NCBI GenBank assembly: GCA_012519925.1
Contig: JAAYPF010000233.1
Span: forward strand, 1 to 33,044
From: Clostridiaceae bacterium
GTDB taxonomy: Bacteria > Bacillota > Clostridia > Acetivibrionales > Acetivibrionaceae
Direction of reading: 5' to 3'
Length of the DNA: 33,044 nt
A program made the position numbers and the translations under genes. The notes below the pieces were generated by a model. It was given only the letters and a program-made list of their open reading frames with translations, was not told the origin of the DNA and searched no databases. Below are positions 8,775 to 19,157 of the stretch, piece by piece (the first letter of the stretch is position 1; each line of letters starts with the position of its first letter).

Positions 8775-8799
8775 ATATTCATTAATAATCCCATAATGG

Positions 8800-8828
8800 T
8801 ATAATATACTCAAGAACTATTTTGGAGG
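8800..8828 (+). promoter_or_regulatory. -10 box and ribosome site before the AddB-like gene
   Basis: TATAAT lies at 8800-8805, with a weak -35 (TTCATT, 8778-8783) 16 bases upstream. The predicted start site near 8812 leaves only a few bases before GGAGG at 8824-8828. In the gene's frame the first canonical start (TTG 8822) overlaps that ribosome site. The best-spaced codon is ATT at 8837. Confidence 0.5.
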
Positions 8829-10888
8829 GATATACCATTATTTTTGATGATGATTCTCGGAAGATAATTGAAATGCCTTCACATAACTCAAAGTACATTC
8901 TCAGAGGGCCTACAGGAAGTGGAAAATCTACAATACTGCTAGAAAGATACAGGTATATGGTGGATAAGCTAAAGGTGCCTAGCGAGAAGATATTGATATT
9001 GCTTCTAAATAGGACCCAGTCATTAGAGTGGAGGACTAAAACTGTGCTTGAAGGTTCAGGTGCGGTTTTAAGAACTTCATATTACGGCTTTATTCAAAGC
9101 GAAATCAAAACCTACTATCCTATTATTGCAAAAAAGTGCAAGGAAATAGTAAACAAAGACATAAAACCGGTTTTCCTTACCTTTGAGGCGGCTCAGTTTC
9201 TTGTTGCTACTGTAATTGAATGGAGGAGGCAGCATGAAGGGGCGTTTGCAGGGGTTACTTCCTATACCGACAGACTTGCTATTGATCTTACGGGTAACCT
9301 TGTAAAAGCGGCTATATCGGATATCCCGTACAACAAGATTGGGGACAGGCTTTATAATGCTCTAGAAAATAAGGATGACTTAAGAAAGCAGATTTATAGG
9401 GAAGCCGATGATATTTTAGCGGCCTACAGAAAAAGGTGCTTAGAGCTTGGAATATTTGATTTTGGCATGGCGGTTGACCTGTACAACAATTATCTTTTGA
9501 AGGACAAATCATATACTGACAGTTTGTACCTAAGGATTGAGCATCTTATTGTAGATAATATTGAAGAGTGTGTACCAACCGAAGCTGATTTTATTGATTT
9601 TCTCCTGCCAAATCTTAAAAGCTGCCTTTTAGCTTATAACCACGAGGGTGGTTTTGGAGAAGCTTTTGGGAGTAATCATAAATATGTAAAGTCGGTATTG
9701 CTAGATAAAATGGATAAGATTGAAATGGGCAAATCCTATACTTGTCAAGATTATATGGTCGAGTTTTCAGACATGCTGTTTGACAATATAGAAAACCTTA
9801 AAGGAAACAAGTGTAATGTTGGGGCTTATATAGAAAGGAATTCACCCTTTGAATTGAGAAGTGAGATGTTAGAGAATGTTGCCGAGAGAATAGTACATTT
9901 GATAAGTAAGGAAGGTTATAATCCTTCGGATATAGTTGTAATATCGAGTTATGCTGATCCGGTTACCGAGTTTGTAATTGCCCGAATTCTTGAAAGGCAT
10001 GGGTATGAAGTTAAAAATCTTGCAAGAAAAAGTAGACTTATTGATAACCCATTTTCACAGGCACTTATAACCTTAGCTCAGTTGTGTCATCCTACTTATG
10101 GGTCAATGCCCAATAGGGATGATGTAAGAGCACTACTTAGGATGGTACTTAAAATTGACCCTGTAAGAAGTTCAATTCTAGCTGGCGAGATTGTAAGTCA
10201 AAGACCTTTTGCACAGTTTCCCGATATTGAGTTTCCGGGACTAGTTGAGAGAATAGGATATTACAATATAGAAAAGTATGAATACATAAGAAACTGGATA
10301 AGTGAATACAAGGCAAGACCGAAGCCTCTTAAAATAAATGAATTTTTCCAGAAAGTTTTCTTGGAAATACTTATATCAAAGGAAGTATCCCAGAAGGATA
10401 TTTTAGAAGCAAAGAATCTTATTGACAGTGCTCAGACTTTTGTTGAAGTAGTATCAAGGTTTAAAAGAAATGCGAGCAAAGATTTTTTAGAGGTTGTGAG
10501 GCGTGGGATTAAATCTGCGGAAAGTATTTTTGAACTTGAAGAGAAGCTCAGTGGAGATTTTGTGCTTATTTCTACACCGGTGCCCTATTTAGCAAGTTCA
10601 TTAAAGAGTAAGGTTACTATAATCACTAGCCTTAGCAGCGACAATTGGACTCCACGCAGTATTAAGGAGATTACAAACCTGCATGTACTCACAAAGACTT
10701 GGGACGAAAACGGAGTTTATACCGAGGAGCTTGAGGAGAAAAACCAGAAACACTATTTAGCTACACTTATGAGAGCTCTTTTCAAGAGGTGTAGCGATAA
10801 GCTTATTACTTTTGAGTCTATGCTGTCGGCTAATGGATATGAAAATGATGGGATTTTAGCGGATTACTTTGATGAAATAATGTCGTAG
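8822..10888 (+). CDS. AddB/UvrD-like SF1 helicase-fold protein with degenerate Walker B
   Basis: A 688-aa protein counted from TTG 8822; if ATT 8837 is the start it is 683 aa. Walker A RGPTGSGKST lies near residues 28-37, followed by ILILLLNRTQSLEWRTKT, like SF1 motif Ia. At the expected motif II the sequence is LIVDNIEECVPTEADF with D245-N-I-E-E, where active UvrD proteins have DExxD. The middle part (GYNPSDIVVISSYADPVTEF, then ARILERHGYEV) resembles the second RecA-like domain of UvrD/AddB proteins, but the clear motif VI arginine pattern is not seen. No nuclease domain or Fe-S cysteines are present, unlike true AddB. It is the first of four co-directional genes with a helicase, a RecB-type nuclease and RecJ. 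I infer a scaffold or DNA-scanning role. An ordinary but divergent helicase is the alternative. Confidence 0.72.
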   Translation: MEGYTIIFDDDSRKIIEMPSHNSKYILRGPTGSGKSTILLERYRYMVDKLKVPSEKILILLLNRTQSLEWRTKTVLEGSGAVLRTSYYGFIQSEIKTYYPIIAKKCKEIVNKDIKPVFLTFEAAQFLVATVIEWRRQHEGAFAGVTSYTDRLAIDLTGNLVKAAISDIPYNKIGDRLYNALENKDDLRKQIYREADDILAAYRKRCLELGIFDFGMAVDLYNNYLLKDKSYTDSLYLRIEHLIVDNIEECVPTEADFIDFLLPNLKSCLLAYNHEGGFGEAFGSNHKYVKSVLLDKMDKIEMGKSYTCQDYMVEFSDMLFDNIENLKGNKCNVGAYIERNSPFELRSEMLENVAERIVHLISKEGYNPSDIVVISSYADPVTEFVIARILERHGYEVKNLARKSRLIDNPFSQALITLAQLCHPTYGSMPNRDDVRALLRMVLKIDPVRSSILAGEIVSQRPFAQFPDIEFPGLVERIGYYNIEKYEYIRNWISEYKARPKPLKINEFFQKVFLEILISKEVSQKDILEAKNLIDSAQTFVEVVSRFKRNASKDFLEVVRRGIKSAESIFELEEKLSGDFVLISTPVPYLASSLKSKVTIITSLSSDNWTPRSIKEITNLHVLTKTWDENGVYTEELEEKNQKHYLATLMRALFKRCSDKLITFESMLSANGYENDGILADYFDEIMS

Positions 10889-10922
10889 AAATTTAAGAAC
10901 TGTATTTTCGTGGAGGATAAGA

Positions 10923-13166
10923 ATGGGACTTAGAAAAGGTCAAAGAGAACTCGTAGAGCAATACAGAAGCGGATACTGTGCTATTCCTGCAATTCCAGGA
11001 GGTGGTAAGACACACTGCCTTTCGCTTTGGGCTGTTGAGATGATTGCAAACAAACTTCACAAACCAGGTAAGATCCTTATTGTTACTTATATGAATAGTG
11101 CTGTTAATAATTTTAAGCAGCGTATAGCTGCAGAGCTTAAAAACAGAGGAATTATAAGCGGTAAGGATTATTTTGTCTCCACCATCCACGGATTATGTCT
11201 TCAGATAATAAAAGAAAAGCCTGACCTTGTGATAACTAATGAAGAGTTTACCATAATAGACGGTGTATCAAAAACTCATCTGATTTCTAGCAGTATCGAC
11301 GATTGGAAGAGACATAATGAGAGAAAATTTAAGCTTTATTTAGATGAAGCAAACCTGAATGCAAATAGGATAAGTGATACCTACAAAAACTGGCAGGATA
11401 AGCTGTGTAATATTATGCTCTCTGCCATCGGGGATTTTAAATGTAGGGGTATTGGAGCTAGAGAGGCAATGGAGCTTTGCAAGAATCTCAGGGAAGATTC
11501 AATATTATCTTGGGCAAGTGAAATATACGAAATATACGACAGGAAGCTTAAAATTGGAGGTTTTTTAGACTTTGATGATATGCTTTATAATGCTAAGAAA
11601 ATGCTCAAAGAGGATGAACTTTTGCTTGAAAAGTATCAAAAAAAGTATACTTTTGTGTGCGAGGATGAGGCACAGGACTCAAACCTTATACAGAGCGAAA
11701 TACTAGAGCTGATATCAAACGGTAACTTGTTGAGGGTTGGAGACAGTAATCAGGCAATATGCGGAAGTTTTAGTAATAGTGATTTTACTTTGTTTAAAAG
11801 TTTTTGCGAAAATCCCTTAACAACGGTATACAAAATTACACAGTCCAGCAGAAATACTGTTGACATAATAAATCTTGCCAACTATTTTGTTGAGTATGTA
11901 AGGGAAAAGCATCCAGTGCCTGAGTGCAAGGAAAGCCTCCTGCCCCAGTTTATAGAACCCGTCGGAGAGGATGATATAAGACCAAACCCTAAAATAGACG
12001 AGTATGGTATTAAGGTGGGCATATTTAAATCCTGGGAGGATGAAGCCCGTACTGTGGTAGTGAAAGCCCAGGAAATGGCAAAGAAATATCCCGATAAGAC
12101 TATTGCAATACTTGTTCCGACATCATGGAGAATGAATGCAATTATAAAGTTTTTAGAAGCAAGACATGTACCCTATGAACAACTGGATAATACATCGGGA
12201 GAAAAAAATAAAACCGTAAGAAAGTTGGGCAGGATCATAGATTTTATAGCCCAACCGGAAAACGGACAGAAATTCTTTGATATGATGAATGAATGCTTTC
12301 TTCTAGATTCCTATGACAGCGGCTTGGTTGAAGGAGAACCTGATGAAGAGAAGAAAATTGTTGGGCAGAAAGTAAAATTAAATGGTTTTTTAAAAATGTA
12401 TCCCGTTGAGAAACTGCTATATCCAATCGGTGGTGAAATTGAGAGAAATGATATACCTAAGGATTTGATAATTAGTGATATATGGACTGATTTTACCGAT
12501 AAACTAGAAATAGTAAGAGAGCTTTTGGAGTTCCCTAACACTATTGTAGAGAAGTTGATACTTTTTATATCTGAGAAGTTGAGATTTGAAAAGGAAGAGA
12601 GGGCAATAGCTCAGAAGGTGGCCGGTGATGTTAGATACCTTATGAGTCAAGATCCTCGTTGGAAATTGGCAGATTTGGCTTTAGAGCTTTTGAGTCCTAA
12701 AAACATATTTAACTTTTTTGCAGGTATCGTGTGGGACTTGAAAGGGTATGAACCTAAACCGGGCGTAGTTACATTGGCTACATATCATAAATCAAAAGGG
12801 CTTGAATGGGACATTGTGTTTCTTACAAGTATTACCAACGGTGATTTTCCTGTTAGTCTTGATGACAAGTTTGTTGGGGAGTATTGGTATCTAAAGGAGG
12901 AGTTTAAGAACCCTCAAGCGATTATAAAAGCCGATTTAGAGAGGTTATTAGATGGAAAAACCGGAGGGGATTCTATAGTGCAGTCGAAAATCGAGACTAT
13001 ATCTGAAAGAGCAAGGCTATTATATGTAGGTATAACTAGGGCAAAGGAGTACTTGTTTTTGACCTCTTTTGAGGCAAATAAGGGAAAAAGGAATGAAACA
13101 TTGCCATCTAAATATATTCTAGAACTCAGAAATTATATTGGACACACAAAAAATCAGCTAATGTAA
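10923..13166 (+). CDS. UvrD/Rep-type SF1 DNA helicase, all motifs intact
   Basis: A 747-aa ATP-dependent 3'-5' helicase of the UvrD/AddA superfamily. Motif I is PAIPGGGKTH (K29), Ia ILIVTYMNSAVNNFKQRI, Ib FVSTIHGLCL, II CEDEAQDSN (D248-E249), III LLRVGDSNQAICGSF, IV ITQSSRNT, V ATYHKSKGLEWDIVFL, and VI LLYVGITRAKEYLFL (R706). The GGGK variant of Walker A is slightly unusual. There is no C-terminal nuclease domain, so any nuclease activity must come from the partner 106 bases downstream. A good GGAGG site precedes the ATG, and the gap to the upstream gene is 34 bases. It is expected to unwind duplex ends for the nuclease and RecJ; this role is inferred from family and context. Confidence 0.92.
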   Translation: MGLRKGQRELVEQYRSGYCAIPAIPGGGKTHCLSLWAVEMIANKLHKPGKILIVTYMNSAVNNFKQRIAAELKNRGIISGKDYFVSTIHGLCLQIIKEKPDLVITNEEFTIIDGVSKTHLISSSIDDWKRHNERKFKLYLDEANLNANRISDTYKNWQDKLCNIMLSAIGDFKCRGIGAREAMELCKNLREDSILSWASEIYEIYDRKLKIGGFLDFDDMLYNAKKMLKEDELLLEKYQKKYTFVCEDEAQDSNLIQSEILELISNGNLLRVGDSNQAICGSFSNSDFTLFKSFCENPLTTVYKITQSSRNTVDIINLANYFVEYVREKHPVPECKESLLPQFIEPVGEDDIRPNPKIDEYGIKVGIFKSWEDEARTVVVKAQEMAKKYPDKTIAILVPTSWRMNAIIKFLEARHVPYEQLDNTSGEKNKTVRKLGRIIDFIAQPENGQKFFDMMNECFLLDSYDSGLVEGEPDEEKKIVGQKVKLNGFLKMYPVEKLLYPIGGEIERNDIPKDLIISDIWTDFTDKLEIVRELLEFPNTIVEKLILFISEKLRFEKEERAIAQKVAGDVRYLMSQDPRWKLADLALELLSPKNIFNFFAGIVWDLKGYEPKPGVVTLATYHKSKGLEWDIVFLTSITNGDFPVSLDDKFVGEYWYLKEEFKNPQAIIKADLERLLDGKTGGDSIVQSKIETISERARLLYVGITRAKEYLFLTSFEANKGKRNETLPSKYILELRNYIGHTKNQLM

Positions 13167-13186
13167 TTATGGTTGTTTTATATTTC

Positions 13187-13214
13187 TTGAAAGTGCCTAA
13201 TTTAATAGTATAGG
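13187..13214 (+). promoter_or_regulatory. Possible internal promoter before the nuclease gene
   Basis: TTGAAA at 13187-13192 and TATAGG at 13209-13214 are spaced by 16 bases in the 106-base gap between helicase and nuclease. This could give extra nuclease-RecJ transcript, but the -10 box is imperfect. Confidence 0.3.
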
Positions 13215-13233
13215 AATTTGCATTTTGAAAGTC

Positions 13234-13247
13234 CGCCCGATAGGGCG
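13234..13247 (+). other. Small GC-rich hairpin in the helicase-nuclease gap
   Basis: CGCCC (13234-13238) pairs with GGGCG (13243-13247) around GATA. It stands out because the surroundings are very AT-rich. It lacks a T-run and is followed 11-15 bases later by the ribosome site of the nuclease gene. It may be a processing or translation-control point, or a weak pause site. Confidence 0.4.
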
Positions 13248-13272
13248 ATAAGTTCATAGAATAGGAGTTATT

Positions 13273-14100
13273 ATGATGAAGGATTTAAGATTTGCGCAAT
13301 ATTTTTTATTTACACAGCAGTCGTTAGCAACCTATGAAAGGTGCCCTTTAAAGTTTAAAAAGAGATATCTTGAGAATCTTAAGTGGGAAAACTTCCCTGA
13401 CGAAGAAATAAAGAAACGGCTTGAAATGGGGAACAATTTCCACCTTCTAGCTCACAGATATTTCCTTGGTATAGATACGGGGTTAAGCGAGAAAACAGAG
13501 GGGTTTGATGAACTTGATAGTTGGATAAATAGCCTTAAAAATAAGTTTAAAAAAGAGGATGGTCGTAAATACCTTCCCGAGTATAAGCTGAGGATTGCAA
13601 AAGGGCTTTTGAGGCTAGAGGCTAATTTTGACCTTGTGATAGTTGATCAAGATAAAATTGAAATTTGGGATTGGAAAACTCATGGCAAGAAAAACAAACT
13701 TGAGCAAAAGGAAATAAGGGCAAATAAATATAATAAAAGTCTTCAATCCATAGTGTATCTTTTTGTGCTAAAGGAGCAAAGCGAGAGAATTACAGGAAGG
13801 GACATTAATTGCGAGAATATCACCATGTATTATTGGCAGCCTGACCCTCCGGAAGTGTTGACGGAAATAAGATACAGCGATGAAAAGCATAATACATACA
13901 GAGAACTTTTACAAAATAAAATCAGAGGAATACTTCAATACGATTTTTCTACATTTGATAAGGCCTTATATGAAAAAAGCTGTAAATACTGTGAATTTAA
14001 CTGGTTTTGTAATAACCAAAGGATAGATTTTAAGGTTCTTGAGGAAGATGAAGATTTTTTAGACGAGCTTGAATGGGAAAGCATTGAGGAGTTGACTTAG
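13273..14100 (+). CDS. Stand-alone RecB/AddB-type PD-(D/E)XK nuclease with Fe-S cluster cysteines
   Basis: A 275-aa nuclease. The N-terminus has SLATYERCPLKFKKRYL, then NNFHLLAHRYFLG, the conserved helix and histidine of RecB-type nucleases. The catalytic core is FDLVIVDQDKIEIWDWKTHG, with D120, D133 and K135. A SLQSIVYLFVL helix supplies the Q and Y of the RecB motif. Four cysteines at 24, 237, 240 and 246 give the pattern C-X212-C-X2-C-X5-C, the arrangement of the AddB iron-sulfur staple (also similar in Cas4). In AddB this domain is fused to an inactive helicase; here it is a separate protein whose likely scaffold is the gene at 8822. RecJ begins directly after its stop codon. Cas4 is a less likely name because no cas genes are nearby. 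Confidence 0.85.
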   Translation: MMKDLRFAQYFLFTQQSLATYERCPLKFKKRYLENLKWENFPDEEIKKRLEMGNNFHLLAHRYFLGIDTGLSEKTEGFDELDSWINSLKNKFKKEDGRKYLPEYKLRIAKGLLRLEANFDLVIVDQDKIEIWDWKTHGKKNKLEQKEIRANKYNKSLQSIVYLFVLKEQSERITGRDINCENITMYYWQPDPPEVLTEIRYSDEKHNTYRELLQNKIRGILQYDFSTFDKALYEKSCKYCEFNWFCNNQRIDFKVLEEDEDFLDELEWESIEELT

Positions 14101-16392
14101 GTGAGGATTGATATAAATTTATTGAATAAGGATGTAAATATACCTAAAGAGCTTATAGAAGTTGCTGATGGGGATGAACTCATTGCAAGAATTTTCTACA
14201 ATAGGGGTTACAAAAACCCAGATACAGTACGTCAAATGCTAAAGGATGAATACTATAATCCCACAGAGGTAAATGAGTTTGAAGGCATACAAAGGGCCGT
14301 TTACAGGATACTCGAAGCTGCTGACAAAGGTGAGAAAGTATGTGTGTACGGTGATTATGATGTTGATGGTGTGACTAGTACGGTTATACTTGTGGAATGC
14401 TTAAGCTTATTTTTAGAAAAGGTGATATACCATGTTCCTGATCGTTTTACAGAAGGGTATGGCATGAATTTAGAGGTTATAGAGAGACTTGCAAGGGAAG
14501 GGGTTTCTTTAATTATTACCTGTGACTGTGGAATATCCAATATAAATGAGATAAACCGTGCAAAAGAATTGAATATGGATATAATACTTACTGACCATCA
14601 CAATATTCCATCCGAGCTTCCAAATGCAGATGTGATATTAAACCCAAAGCTTCTTCAAGAGGGGCACAAGGCAAGAAATATCTCAGGGTGTGCAATGGCG
14701 TATTTTTTATGCCTTGCCCTTTTAAAGAGTAAAGGTCTTGAGGAAAAGTCGGAAGACTATTTAGATATGCTTGCTCTATCGCTTATTGCAGACGTAGTAA
14801 GCCTTAATGGAGAAAATAGATATTTACTTAAAAAAGCAATTCCTAAATTGTTTAATACAAAAAGGGAAGGGCTGGTAAAATTATTAGAGATAGCAAGCAA
14901 GACTAGTGAACTCAGCACTGAAGAGGATATTGCTTTCCAGATAGCACCTAGAATTAACGCAGCAGGTAGAATGGAATCGGCAAGGCTTCCCGTAGAATTA
15001 ATGCTTTGTAAAGACCCTTATAATGCAGGTGAAATGGCTCAAAAGATAGATTATCTTAATATAGAGCGCAAAAGGGTTCAACAGGAAATTATAGATCAGG
15101 CAATAGAACAGGTGGAGACAAAAAAGAAAAACAAGACAGTGTTAGTGCTCTACAGTGATTTTTGGCATCATGGAATTATCGGGATTGCAGCAGGCAGGGT
15201 ATGTGAGGTATATAGAAAACCGGCAATTCTCTTATCCCTCAAAGAGGATGGCAAAACGGTTGTTGGTTCTGCACGGTCTGTTGAGGAGATAAACATATAT
15301 GAACTAATTAAGGAATGCAGCGGTAAGCTTTTAAAATATGGAGGTCATTCCCAGGCAGCTGGACTTTCTCTTATGAAAGAGAATCTTCAGGACTTTGTTA
15401 GTGAAATCGAATTTCTTGCGGAAAAGAAACACTTCGTCAGTGATACAATAAGTGTTGATGTAGATTTAGAGCTTGAAATTGATAGCATAACTATGGAATT
15501 TTATGAAAGACTACTTACAGCAGGTCCGTATGGTGAAGGTTTTGAGGCACCGCTTTTTGTATCCTATGGTTTAAATGTTTTAAGTGACAGAAAGACTGAA
15601 AAGAACCATCACATAATGATATTAGAGGGGAAGAATAATACAAGGGTTTCTGCAGTCAAGTGGTTTGGTGAGGATAAATCGCTTCAGGGCAAAGTTTTTG
15701 ATGTTATCTACAAGATAAGCAAAAATACTTATAGGGGTAATTCTAGTATTCAGCTGACTTTGGTACATATGCTTGAAGGAACAGGAGAGATACAAAAGGT
15801 ATTTCGTGGGGATATTATCGATGAAAGGGGTATAGGTCTTAATATTTTAGGACAAAAATATGAAAAAGCCCTATTTTTCTATGAAGGTTTAAGTTCGAAA
15901 TGTTCTCTAGCTAAAACTGTTAATCGCTTTACTATTACAAAGGCTGATAGCCTAGTGTTATTATCTCCACCTCCTAATACAGAGATTTTTAGGGAAATTG
16001 TAGCTTTGAGTAATCCTCATAATATTATTATTAATTTTAGTATTATGCCCGATTACTCATTTAGAGGCTTTGTCACAAATCTTTTAGGTGTTATAAAGCA
16101 CACAGTGACAAAGGATATGGGAAATGGAGATGTTGAAGCTATCGCAATTAAACTTGGTGTGGAGGAGAGCCTCATAAAATCCGCATTAAGATTTTTAAAA
16201 GCAGCTGGTAAAATAAACTATCTCTTGAGTGAAGATGATACAAAGGTGTTTTTATTTAAAGGTGACGGTACTATAAGTGATAACATGGCTTTATTGGAAA
16301 AGCGATTAAGAAATGCCCTATTGGAAAAGAAGGCATATCAACAGTTTGTATTAAAAACCGAAGTTATTAACTTCAGGAAGTACTTAAAATAA
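14101..16392 (+). CDS. recJ: RecJ-type single-strand DNA 5'-3' exonuclease
   Basis: A 763-aa DHH/DHHA1 protein. It starts at GTG 14101, the base after the nuclease stop, with GAGGAG nine bases upstream inside the nuclease gene, so translation is coupled. Metal-binding motifs are VYGDYDVDG (D85-D87-D89), ITCDCGIS, LTDHHNIP (D165-H166-H167) and LSLIADVVSL. PRINAAGRME is the conserved RecJ motif, and KYGGHSQAAG (G414-G415-H416) is the DHHA1 signature. The C-terminal roughly 300 residues match the length and OB-fold-plus-extension layout of Firmicute RecJ. RecJ degrades single strands during repair and recombination. Chromosomal recJ usually sits elsewhere, near protein-export or purine-salvage genes, so this may be a second, system-specific copy; that is an inference to be checked on the full genome. 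Confidence 0.9.
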   Translation: MRIDINLLNKDVNIPKELIEVADGDELIARIFYNRGYKNPDTVRQMLKDEYYNPTEVNEFEGIQRAVYRILEAADKGEKVCVYGDYDVDGVTSTVILVECLSLFLEKVIYHVPDRFTEGYGMNLEVIERLAREGVSLIITCDCGISNINEINRAKELNMDIILTDHHNIPSELPNADVILNPKLLQEGHKARNISGCAMAYFLCLALLKSKGLEEKSEDYLDMLALSLIADVVSLNGENRYLLKKAIPKLFNTKREGLVKLLEIASKTSELSTEEDIAFQIAPRINAAGRMESARLPVELMLCKDPYNAGEMAQKIDYLNIERKRVQQEIIDQAIEQVETKKKNKTVLVLYSDFWHHGIIGIAAGRVCEVYRKPAILLSLKEDGKTVVGSARSVEEINIYELIKECSGKLLKYGGHSQAAGLSLMKENLQDFVSEIEFLAEKKHFVSDTISVDVDLELEIDSITMEFYERLLTAGPYGEGFEAPLFVSYGLNVLSDRKTEKNHHIMILEGKNNTRVSAVKWFGEDKSLQGKVFDVIYKISKNTYRGNSSIQLTLVHMLEGTGEIQKVFRGDIIDERGIGLNILGQKYEKALFFYEGLSSKCSLAKTVNRFTITKADSLVLLSPPPNTEIFREIVALSNPHNIIINFSIMPDYSFRGFVTNLLGVIKHTVTKDMGNGDVEAIAIKLGVEESLIKSALRFLKAAGKINYLLSEDDTKVFLFKGDGTISDNMALLEKRLRNALLEKKAYQQFVLKTEVINFRKYLK

Positions 16393-16406: not shown

Positions 16407-17225
16407 TTACACAATATCAAGTATTTTGATTACACAAGCTGTAATATTGTCTGTTCCTAAATTGCCTAGTGCTAAATCAATCAGGTCTTTACATATAGTA
16501 GTACTAGTGTCGTTTATGGCTAGATGGAATTTTATTTCTTCGTTGTTTATAAAGTCTGAAAGCCCATCACTACAGACAAGATAGGTATCTCCTGTTAAAA
16601 CGTTTAATTCATCGGAGTAATCTGCCTCCATTGTACCGAGGGAAGGGTCTGTGCCTAGATATCTAGTGAGTATGTTTTTGCTTTTATGAAATCTAGCGGT
16701 ATGGCTGTTTAAAACTCCGAGACGTATAAGTCGTTGAGCCTCAGTATGATCCGTTGTGAGTTCTGTCAGCTTTGAACCACGTAATAGGTATACTCTACTA
16801 TCTCCAATATTTAGGGTCATTGTTTTGTTGCCACAAAATACAATAGATGTCAAAGTGGTGCCCATTCTTTTTCCTAAAGATAATGCTTGTTCATATATTA
16901 GTTTATTAGCTATTTTTATATGCTTATCTATAGATTCTTTTAGCTCTGATAATGATGTGCTAGTTGGAAAGCTGCTTTTATAGAATTCATCTAGAGCTTG
17001 AACAGCAAAAAAAGCTGCTTGTTCTCCAAATTGCTCACCGCCCATACCGTCACAAACAGCAAAGATGAATTGTTGGGCGGAAGTTATTGTCGAAAAACAT
17101 AGAGGACTGGTAATAGAGTCTTTTTTCATAAAAGCACCATTAAAATAAAAATTATCTTCATTTTTATTTAGGACCTTTCCTTTAGTTGTCATAACGGAAG
17201 CGTCAATTTTAAGCATTATACCCAT
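16407..17225 (-). CDS. PP2C-family protein phosphatase
   Basis: A 272-aa soluble Ser/Thr phosphatase. Metal-binding motifs are NKNEDNFYF (E23-D24), AVCDGMGGEQFG (D59-G60), GTTLTSIVF, LNIGDSRVYLLR, VCSDGLSDF, and a final DNITACVI. All acidic residues needed for the two-metal centre are visible. The start at 17225 has an AAAGGTGGTG site upstream on the minus strand. It lies 12 bases after the kinase gene and is surely co-transcribed with it, forming a kinase-phosphatase switch. Its 3' end faces the RecJ gene at a distance of only 14 bases. The substrate is unknown; the kinase itself is the usual one. Confidence 0.93.
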   Translation of the reverse strand: MGIMLKIDASVMTTKGKVLNKNEDNFYFNGAFMKKDSITSPLCFSTITSAQQFIFAVCDGMGGEQFGEQAAFFAVQALDEFYKSSFPTSTSLSELKESIDKHIKIANKLIYEQALSLGKRMGTTLTSIVFCGNKTMTLNIGDSRVYLLRGSKLTELTTDHTEAQRLIRLGVLNSHTARFHKSKNILTRYLGTDPSLGTMEADYSDELNVLTGDTYLVCSDGLSDFINNEEIKFHLAINDTSTTICKDLIDLALGNLGTDNITACVIKILDIV

Positions 17226-17237
17226 ACCACACCACCT

Positions 17238-19157
17238 TTAGATGTAAATCCATTCGTCATCAACATTTCCCTCCACTAGAATTTGAGTTCTATTAAGACC
17301 ATTTGGGCAGATTTTGTAAATCCTGTTATTATCGGTTTTGTTACAGTAATAGATCCAATCATCCACCACAGTGATAAAATCAGTATAATCATCATTGAGT
17401 TTTTCTTTATCAGATCCGTCGCTACGTATTCTATATAGTTTACTCATATCGTTTTTATTACAATAATAGATCCAATCCTTATAGATGTTTATATTACTTG
17501 AAGTATCCTCACAGATCATCACTGTTTTTGTTCCGGAAGTATTTATTTTGTAGAGTTTCATATGGTCACTTTTGTTGCAGAAAAATATCCAACCATCGGC
17601 TATGCAAAAATAGCTTGCTTCGTCATTTGAAATTTTTGTTTTTTCTCCTCCGCAAGTATTTATTCTATAAAGCCTACCCTTATCGCTTTTATTGCAATAG
17701 TATAGGAACTCATGGTATAAGCTTAAATTATATGCTTCGTCATTGAGCAATTTAATCTTTTCTGTCCCATCAGTTTTAGCTTTGTATATGCTGTAACCGT
17801 CAGATTCATTACAATAATAAATCCAATTCTGTTCCACATTTAAATACAAAGAGCTGTCAGCTATAACTTTTTTTCTATGGCTTCCATCTATATTAATACG
17901 ATAAATATGATCATTATCAGAGGAGTTGCAGTAATAGATCGATTTATCCACTATATTGATAAACCATGTTTCATCGGAAGTTAGCTTTATTATTTGGGTT
18001 TTGTCAGGGTTGATTTTATATAAATTGTGTTTTTGGTTAGGACACGATAGGTATATCCATTCCTCCATTGAACAGACGAGACTTCCGTTTACAATGTTGC
18101 CGGATATATGTGTGTGTTTGCTAATATCTGTGTTATTTAATATTACGGTTTCAGGAACAATACTCATAGTTTTTGGTGAGTTTACTTTTTTCTTTGGCAG
18201 GACAATCTTTTGCCTGTCAATGTAGGACATATCAGAGCATGCCTCTATTAAAGCCCTTTTAACTTCCTCAGGGGATACAAATCTATCAGAAGGCTTGTAT
18301 TCACATAGTTTAAGTATAATATTGCCTAGTTTTGGGTGTGCAGTGCATGGGGGTAGCATAGTTTCACCGAGTAGGCGTTTTTCTACAGCAATTTCTCTGT
18401 CTTTTATACGAAGCTCGGTTGGGAAAGGTGGCATAAAAGGATACCTACCATTATTTAGGAGTTTATAAAGTAAAATGCCTAAAGAATATAGGTCAGACCT
18501 TGTATCATAAGTTTCACCCTTATATACTTCAGGAGCCATATATAGGGGAGTGCCGCGAATTGAGGCAGAATAGCCTTTTGACAGTTCTCGTGCGATTCCA
18601 AAATCACCCAACTTATAGCGTTTGTCTTGTGATACAAATATATTTTCATCCTTTATATCTCTATGAACAATGTTCTTTTTCGAACACAGCTCTAGAGCAG
18701 CACATATATCTAGACCGATATTTACAACATCATCTATAGATAAATCTTTTTCTTCAATATATTTATTAAGGGGTGTAAGAAATTCCATCCTTATCAAAAT
18801 ATCCCATGCGATTTTGTCTGGATGTTTTTCTACAGTATGATCTTCATAACTTACTATATTACTGTTTCCCCTAAGGTTATAAAGCATAACAATTTCATTT
18901 GTAATACTTTTTACAGCATCTTCAAAATAATGCTTTAGTAGGTTTTCGTCATTTCCTAGAGTTGATATGGCCTCGCTGTACTGTTCTTTAGTGGGAATGC
19001 TCATGAGCTTTAAGGCGGACTCATATTTATAGCCCCATTCTTCTTTGAATATCTTATAGACTTTTCCAAAACTGCCTTGACCAACAAATTTCTCTATGTA
19101 CCAACTGCCCCAAAAGGGTTCATACCTTTTCACGTAGTCATCCTTTGAATAATCCAT
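17238..19157 (-). CDS. Ser/Thr protein kinase with C-terminal DUF5050-like repeat domain
   Basis: A 639-aa protein with a kinase domain at about residues 18-290: glycine loop FVGQGSFGKVYKI, lysine K50 in SALKLM, catalytic loop HRDIKDEN (D167), GDFGIARE, activation segment end GTPLYMAPEVY, and SDLYSLGILLY. After a linker, residues 340-635 hold about seven repeats of the form WIYYCNKSD..LYRI..DGS..K, a DUF5050/propeller-type fold that probably senses a ligand or partner. No membrane segment separates the two parts, which differs from PASTA-type PrkC kinases, so both domains are cytoplasmic. The ribosome site AGGAGG is 11 bases before the ATG. It forms an operon with the PP2C gene. Targets are unknown. 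Confidence 0.92.
   Translation of the reverse strand: MDYSKDDYVKRYEPFWGSWYIEKFVGQGSFGKVYKIFKEEWGYKYESALKLMSIPTKEQYSEAISTLGNDENLLKHYFEDAVKSITNEIVMLYNLRGNSNIVSYEDHTVEKHPDKIAWDILIRMEFLTPLNKYIEEKDLSIDDVVNIGLDICAALELCSKKNIVHRDIKDENIFVSQDKRYKLGDFGIARELSKGYSASIRGTPLYMAPEVYKGETYDTRSDLYSLGILLYKLLNNGRYPFMPPFPTELRIKDREIAVEKRLLGETMLPPCTAHPKLGNIILKLCEYKPSDRFVSPEEVKRALIEACSDMSYIDRQKIVLPKKKVNSPKTMSIVPETVILNNTDISKHTHISGNIVNGSLVCSMEEWIYLSCPNQKHNLYKINPDKTQIIKLTSDETWFINIVDKSIYYCNSSDNDHIYRINIDGSHRKKVIADSSLYLNVEQNWIYYCNESDGYSIYKAKTDGTEKIKLLNDEAYNLSLYHEFLYYCNKSDKGRLYRINTCGGEKTKISNDEASYFCIADGWIFFCNKSDHMKLYKINTSGTKTVMICEDTSSNINIYKDWIYYCNKNDMSKLYRIRSDGSDKEKLNDDYTDFITVVDDWIYYCNKTDNNRIYKICPNGLNRTQILVEGNVDDEWIYI

Follow-up and report, generated by a model that had tools for sequence, protein, structure and literature searches.

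Introduction

Do four adjacent genes for a degenerate helicase, an intact helicase, a nuclease, and a RecJ exonuclease encode a machine for processing DNA ends, an anti-phage system, or proteins with nothing in common? This question is raised by a stretch of 33,044 nucleotides from a Clostridiaceae bacterium (contig JAAYPF010000233.1 of assembly GCA_012519925.1), referred to here in its whole length as the window. An earlier note had read the genes as a split AddAB-like system with an added 5'-3' exonuclease, serving either alternative end resection or defense against phages. To our knowledge, how breaks are resected in bacteria without RecBCD, AddAB, and AdnAB is mostly unknown. One of these three enzymes is found in 88% of bacterial genomes, and about 12% have none (PMC6452273).

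Results

Four open reading frames, designated A to D, were observed as one collinear unit on the forward strand, with intergenic gaps of 34, 106, and 0 bases; the common direction, the tight spacing, and a RecJ gene starting right after the nuclease stop codon had all been claimed in the earlier note. Gene A (8837 to 10888; listed as an ORF of 688 aa from a TTG at 8822) encodes a motor-dead protein of SF1A/UvrD fold that resembles the helicase part of AddB, and gene B (10923 to 13166) encodes an intact UvrD/PcrA-type 3'-5' helicase of 747 aa without a nuclease domain. Gene C (13273 to 14100) specifies a stand-alone RecB/AddB-type PD-(D/E)XK nuclease of 275 aa with four Fe-S cysteines, and gene D (14101 to 16392) specifies a second RecJ of 763 aa, which belongs to a cassette-specific subfamily and has its own C-terminal extension. 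The host, whose genome is 99.98% complete in 253 contigs, is a member of the Acetivibrio group; among named organisms, the closest relatives of A come from Acetivibrio alkalicellulosi, Herbivorax, Acetivibrio mesophilus, Acetivibrio straminisolvens, and Pseudobacteroides. Convergent on the cassette lie genes for a PP2C phosphatase and a Ser/Thr kinase with a DUF5050 C-terminal domain (16407 to 19157). As both other genomes of the genus (loci L114 and L115) show this pair next to the cassette too, it is probably a mere local neighbor.

Conserved co-occurrence of all four genes, which had been proposed as a check, was borne out in the host's order and in about 17 further families. Among 58 genomes of the order, A was present in 25, B in 24, C in 25, and D in 23, and the genome sets of A, B, and C were identical except for B, which was not found in the fragmentary genome G014. 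D was absent from G055, where a glycosyltransferase gene on the opposite strand comes next after C, and was not found in G054, where the contig is broken. While B, C, and D remain linked, A drifts: it lies 1.5 kb away in G004, 8.7 kb away in G027, and about 10 kb away in G007, occupies separate contigs in G029 to G031, and is 2 Mb distant in the single-contig genome G028. Because A is kept with B and C though unlinked, these genomes provide strong evidence of joint function. Within families the cassette is near-universal, occurring in all five genomes of family f5 and in 12 of 14 genomes of family f1, where one negative genome is only 55% complete. Pairwise distances of the A, B, C, and D proteins correlated at 0.90 to 0.96 across 24 carriers, a value that in part reflects species history.

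The phyletic pattern observed outside the order extends this result. Among 391 genomes sampled from the class, 7 outside the order contained A; A-B-C stood in order in the six of these with enough contig, and D was present in one. RecJ is thus not obligatory, as D is missing from G055 and from most class carriers outside the order. In three genomes of one family (G345, G413, and G198), A-B-C is followed directly by canonical addB and addA in the same direction (L191, 1 to 12386; L192, 1 to 11914; L193, 3 to 9581). A lacks the P-loop in all three, the cysteines of C are lost in G198, and the cassette may work with AddAB in this family. A phylum-wide sample of 398 genomes yielded A in 27 genomes of other classes, distributed over about 17 families, and nearly all of those with enough contig carried A-B-C-D in the same order. 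In G650 (L242), a gap of about 650 bases lies between C and D, unlike in relatives of the same family. A complete cassette in the same order was also found in a second phylum, on the 56-kb plasmid pSR56 of Salinibacter ruber M8 (Rhodothermota; L201, 8938 to 16821), where the genes are annotated as hypothetical protein, ATP-dependent helicase, PD-(D/E)XK nuclease, and RecJ and the proteins are 24 to 31% identical to those of the window. Ilyobacter polytropus carries a lone A on a megaplasmid.

These distributions bear on the simplest alternative, namely that four unrelated repair genes are merely adjacent in Clostridia. The drift of A from B-C-D in several genomes would fit such a reading, but, at 24 to 32% identity, the gene set and order hold across about 17 families and in a second phylum, and the retention of A with B-C even if unlinked, like the co-occurrence data as a whole, contradicts chance adjacency. 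We regard this explanation as practically ruled out; the grouping is far beyond chance and recurs together in dozens of genomes.

Motif states and predicted folds divide the roles among the proteins, with B, C, and D intact in their residues and A motor-dead. The motif check covered up to 36 relatives beside the window sequences (37 sequences). A matched only the UvrD N-terminal domain of Pfam (40.9 bits). In the window it retains the P-loop GPTGSGKS, and its motif II reads VDNIEE (D245 N246 x E248 E249) instead of DExxQD, so that the catalytic glutamate is replaced by asparagine. The same position is Asn, Asp, or Ser in all relatives but one, and the P-loop is mostly retained. The predicted model of A (mean pLDDT 78) matches UvrD-type helicases over its whole length, with Z scores of 29 for UvrD/PcrA, 25 for AdnB, and 22 for AddB. 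Both the suggested degeneracy of an SF1/AddB-like protein and the expected alignment of the product listed from 8822 with AddB/UvrD folds are therefore confirmed, the latter over the full length. In L255 and L256, two carriers from the phylum sample, gene A is broken over two frames (frameshift or assembly error), and B and C are intact. A suspected A-B fusion in L256 and a suspected large C in L258 were rejected, each being explained by a long upstream or overlapping reading frame.

B carries the UvrD N and C domains of Pfam and no others, as expected of the intact, nuclease-free helicase that the note had described. All 14 positions checked (Walker A, DExxQD, and motifs III to VI) were invariant in 37 sequences, and profile comparison placed B nearer to PcrA than to AddA. 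C matched PDDEXK_1 (PF12705; E 3e-29), and its nuclease positions G53, H57, E103, D120, D133, K135, Q158, and Y162 were likewise invariant in 37 sequences. The four cysteines named in the note (C24, C237, C240, and C246) are all present and are retained in 35 of the 37 sequences, the exceptions being G198 and one sequence cut by a contig end. Their C-x2-C-x5-C spacing also occurs in the AddB sequences compared. An Fe-S site is predicted from these residues, and the cluster itself is inferred. Since a sequence search of the PDB with C gave no meaningful match, fold comparison was required. The best match for the model of C (pLDDT 82) was the AdnA nuclease domain (Z 15.7), followed by ACE1, an Argonaute-associated Cas4-family protein (Z 13.9), and the AddB nuclease (Z 13.3). 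Profile comparison placed C weakly on the AddB nuclease domain (residues 790 to 1006; probability 33%, E 5e-4) and did not place it on the nuclease domain of AddA.

Whether the RecJ of the window is the only one in the host had been named as a check. It is not: a canonical RecJ, sharing 34% identity with D in the core region, is also encoded by the host. D contains the DHH, DHHA1, and RecJ_OB domains of Pfam, scores 524 bits against the NCBIfam RecJ model TIGR00644 (cut-off, 396.9), and is invariant at the DHH-family positions across the relatives checked; domains and catalytic residues are thus common to both RecJ types. D differs from canonical RecJ in its C-terminal extension and in its phylogeny. 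A maximum-likelihood analysis of 46 RecJ sequences placed the 31 D proteins from cassettes, that of Salinibacter among them, on one side of a single branch (support, 100/99) and 15 canonical RecJ proteins drawn from four phyla on the other. Canonical RecJ was present in every carrier of the order, and D was present in no cassette-free genome there.

The listed start of gene A, TTG 8822, requires correction. In aligned upstream DNA of about 20 relatives, TATAAT, GGAGGG, and an ATT, ATC, or ATA codon follow one another at constant spacing, and GGAGGG with 6 to 7 bases before ATT, ATC, or ATA is conserved at gene A starts. In the window, a −10 box (TATAAT, region 8802 to 8807) and a ribosome-binding site (GGAGGG, 8824 to 8829) lie on the forward strand directly 5' of A, within 8800 to 8829; a promoter-like match at 8782 to 8810 is by itself not above chance. 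Five relatives of A (L033, L034, L039, L046, and L054) have no in-frame ATG, GTG, or TTG 5' of the P-loop. Judged from these alignments alone, the start codon of A seems to be a non-standard AUU, AUC, or AUA. The start in the window is probably ATT 8837; TTG 8822 is doubted, as it overlaps the ribosome-binding site. Such starts are rare outside infC, and this one may restrict expression of A. SOS control of the cassette was considered and rejected, as no LexA/DinR box (GAACN4GTTC, at most one mismatch) was found in the 500 bases 5' of A in 18 of 19 loci; a single imperfect match was seen in L053.

The distribution of the cassette was then compared with that of AddB, scored as TIGR02773 with E below 1e-50. 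Within the order, AddB was found in 8 of 25 carriers versus 30 of 33 non-carriers (Fisher p 3.6e-6, rising to 4.5e-5 if divergent AddB is counted as present), and across the phylum in 3 of 27 carriers versus 233 of 370 non-carriers (p 1e-7). These p-values are guides only, as shared ancestry was not corrected for. Fourteen carriers of the order had no AddB (G001, G003, G004, G005, G007, G014, G027 to G033, and G048). Their PF12705 matches listed beside C were short (Cas4-sized or 370 to 390 aa) or weak, and one further weak match in G001 lay outside those listed; RecB, AddA, and AdnAB would normally be detectable by PF12705, since it picks up E. coli RecB. In family f4, G026 has AddB only and G027 the cassette only, and the same contrast was seen in family f159 (G651 and G511). 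The host itself, for which the note had asked about a standard addAB, has a divergent AddAB-like pair of about 1147 and 1068 aa on another contig (G000:C218; L009 and L010), well below the Gram-positive AddA and AddB cut-offs; the answer is mixed, since the 14 other carriers named above have no AddB. Low-scoring AddB matches like those of the host also occur in G010, G011, and G049. Because the host has this pair and eight carriers of the order keep canonical AddB, the cassette is not a strict replacement of AddAB.

We also considered that the cassette serves some repair step other than end resection, such as the processing of stalled forks or gaps with RecFOR. In E. coli, RecJ and RecFOR act together at gaps (PMC1193525), and by profile B is nearer to PcrA than to AddA. 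However, a canonical RecJ and further UvrD/PcrA proteins exist besides those of the cassette, AddB depletion and the A-B-C-addB-addA order point to the AddAB pathway, and a dead-helicase partner combined with an Fe-S nuclease of AddB type is what marks an end-resection complex. This alternative strikes us as quite improbable.

A role mainly in defense, with the helicase-nuclease and exonuclease degrading incoming phage or plasmid DNA, had been the second suggestion of the note. It draws support from the plasmid location in Salinibacter, from matches of B to GajB-type helicase profiles, and from the fact that AddAB-type enzymes also degrade phage DNA. Screens in Synechococcus elongatus add that loss of uvrD, recJcy (a second recJ), a cas4-like gene, or Synpcc7942_0992 (PD-(D/E)XK) favors foreign plasmids and transformation (PMC10653904). 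Homology is undemonstrated; these genes are possibly an unlinked version of the cassette, which we take as a lead only. Neither neighborhood nor distribution supported the suggestion, however. PADLOC scored B only as a generic UvrD protein and gave no system-level match for A, C, or D. Most of the 68 neighboring proteins have housekeeping roles (adenylate kinase, mraW, glycerate kinase, and Hsp33), and defense-type matches among them are few. Near-universal presence in families (5 of 5 and 12 of 14) is unlike the patchy occurrence of defense genes, no relatives were found in the phages or viral contigs searched, and loss of AddAB is not predicted by a defense role. Defense as the main function is therefore unlikely, and housekeeping is the best reading of the cassette's role.

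Discussion

Overall, we consider it likely that the cassette encodes a split counterpart of AddAB and AdnAB, with its own RecJ, that prepares double-stranded DNA ends for RecA-dependent repair. Co-occurrence, the fold of A, and the second RecJ support the split AddAB-like system with a 5'-3' exonuclease for alternative end resection that the note had proposed, and this proposal withstood each refuting condition set out in the note. The direct evidence consists of gene content and order, conservation, motif state, fold, and phyletic pattern; the biochemical function, including the activity, the role in break repair, and a complex of A, B, and C, is inferred. The inferred strand polarity would follow from B as the single 3'-5' motor, pulling along the 3'-ended strand. 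A, the motor-dead UvrD-fold partner, would hold or scan DNA like the helicase-like part of AddB, and C, by analogy with the AddB nuclease, would cut the 5'-ended strand. Coupling with RecJ is again an inference, in which D would be dedicated to digesting the 5' strand once displaced, so that a 3' tail is left for RecA. Such a split would drop the second, AddA-type nuclease, and some of the strand removal may fall to RecJ.

The observation is confirmed, and the case for it is stronger than a reading of the sequence alone could show. The cassette occurs in many Gram-positive bacteria and on one plasmid of an unrelated phylum, often in place of standard AddAB, and looks like an undescribed variant. 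We see an even chance that it constitutes a fourth presynaptic end-resection class beside RecBCD, AddAB, and AdnAB, in which scanner, motor, Fe-S nuclease, and 5'-3' exonuclease are inherited together as four individual proteins and form the sole such machine in many Bacillota without the three. If so, it would close part of the resection gap in genomes lacking those enzymes, would occur in cellulolytic relatives of Acetivibrio that biotechnology makes use of, and would tie a dedicated RecJ to such a complex; we know of no class that has one. AddAB domains as single proteins would also permit the dead-helicase scanner, the motor, and the nuclease to be studied or mutated separately.

An unfused UvrD and Cas4-like protein have been mentioned in one sentence as a predicted operon of Clostridiales, probably for repair and not defense (Hudaiberdiev et al. 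2017, PMC5704561). As far as the available portion of that paper goes, this operon is very probably the B-C pair, and the same portion does not describe the dead-helicase partner, the RecJ, or the link to AddAB. The literature searched, which excludes most subscription papers, likewise yielded the B-C pair only; A, D, and the AddAB link were found in no text searched.

Compared with known systems, the cassette meets some defining features and fails others. No GajA match, as would be expected of Gabija (GajAB), was found in the four proteins, and C reached 18 bits against the Cas4 model TIGR00372 (cut-off, 65); the proteins scanned around the cassette gave no cas-type match. With RecBCD the cassette shares a single nuclease domain and a dead helicase subunit in a RecC-like role. 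It differs in that RecC has no P-loop, that there is no RecD-type 5'-3' motor or RecD-like gene in the unit, and that the nuclease is unfused from the motor; B scored 95.4 bits against the recB model (cut-off, 696). In common with mycobacterial AdnAB are the pair of a live and a crippled motor, the fold of C, nearest to the AdnA nuclease domain, and that of A, near AdnB. AdnA and AdnB, however, each combine motor and nuclease in one chain, a requirement that the single-domain cassette proteins, with motors and nuclease apart, do not meet.

With AddAB the cassette has in common a live UvrD-type motor (B), a motor-dead UvrD-fold protein with a P-loop (A), and a PD-(D/E)XK nuclease with the Fe-S cysteines C ... 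C-x2-C-x5-C (C). The two systems have complementary distributions, and the cassette adjoins addBA in one family. In contrast to AddAB, the cassette nuclease is separate from the dead helicase, one PD-(D/E)XK nuclease is present instead of two, and a dedicated RecJ is added. None of its proteins passes the AddA or AddB models: B, without a fused C-terminal nuclease, scored 80.9 bits against TIGR02785 (cut-off, 707.65), and TIGR02773 gave no match with A, which ends at the UvrD fold, or with the separate C. Since it lacks the fusion features and falls short of the curated models, the cassette is not counted as AddAB; it is best classed as a variant within the AddAB/AdnAB kind.
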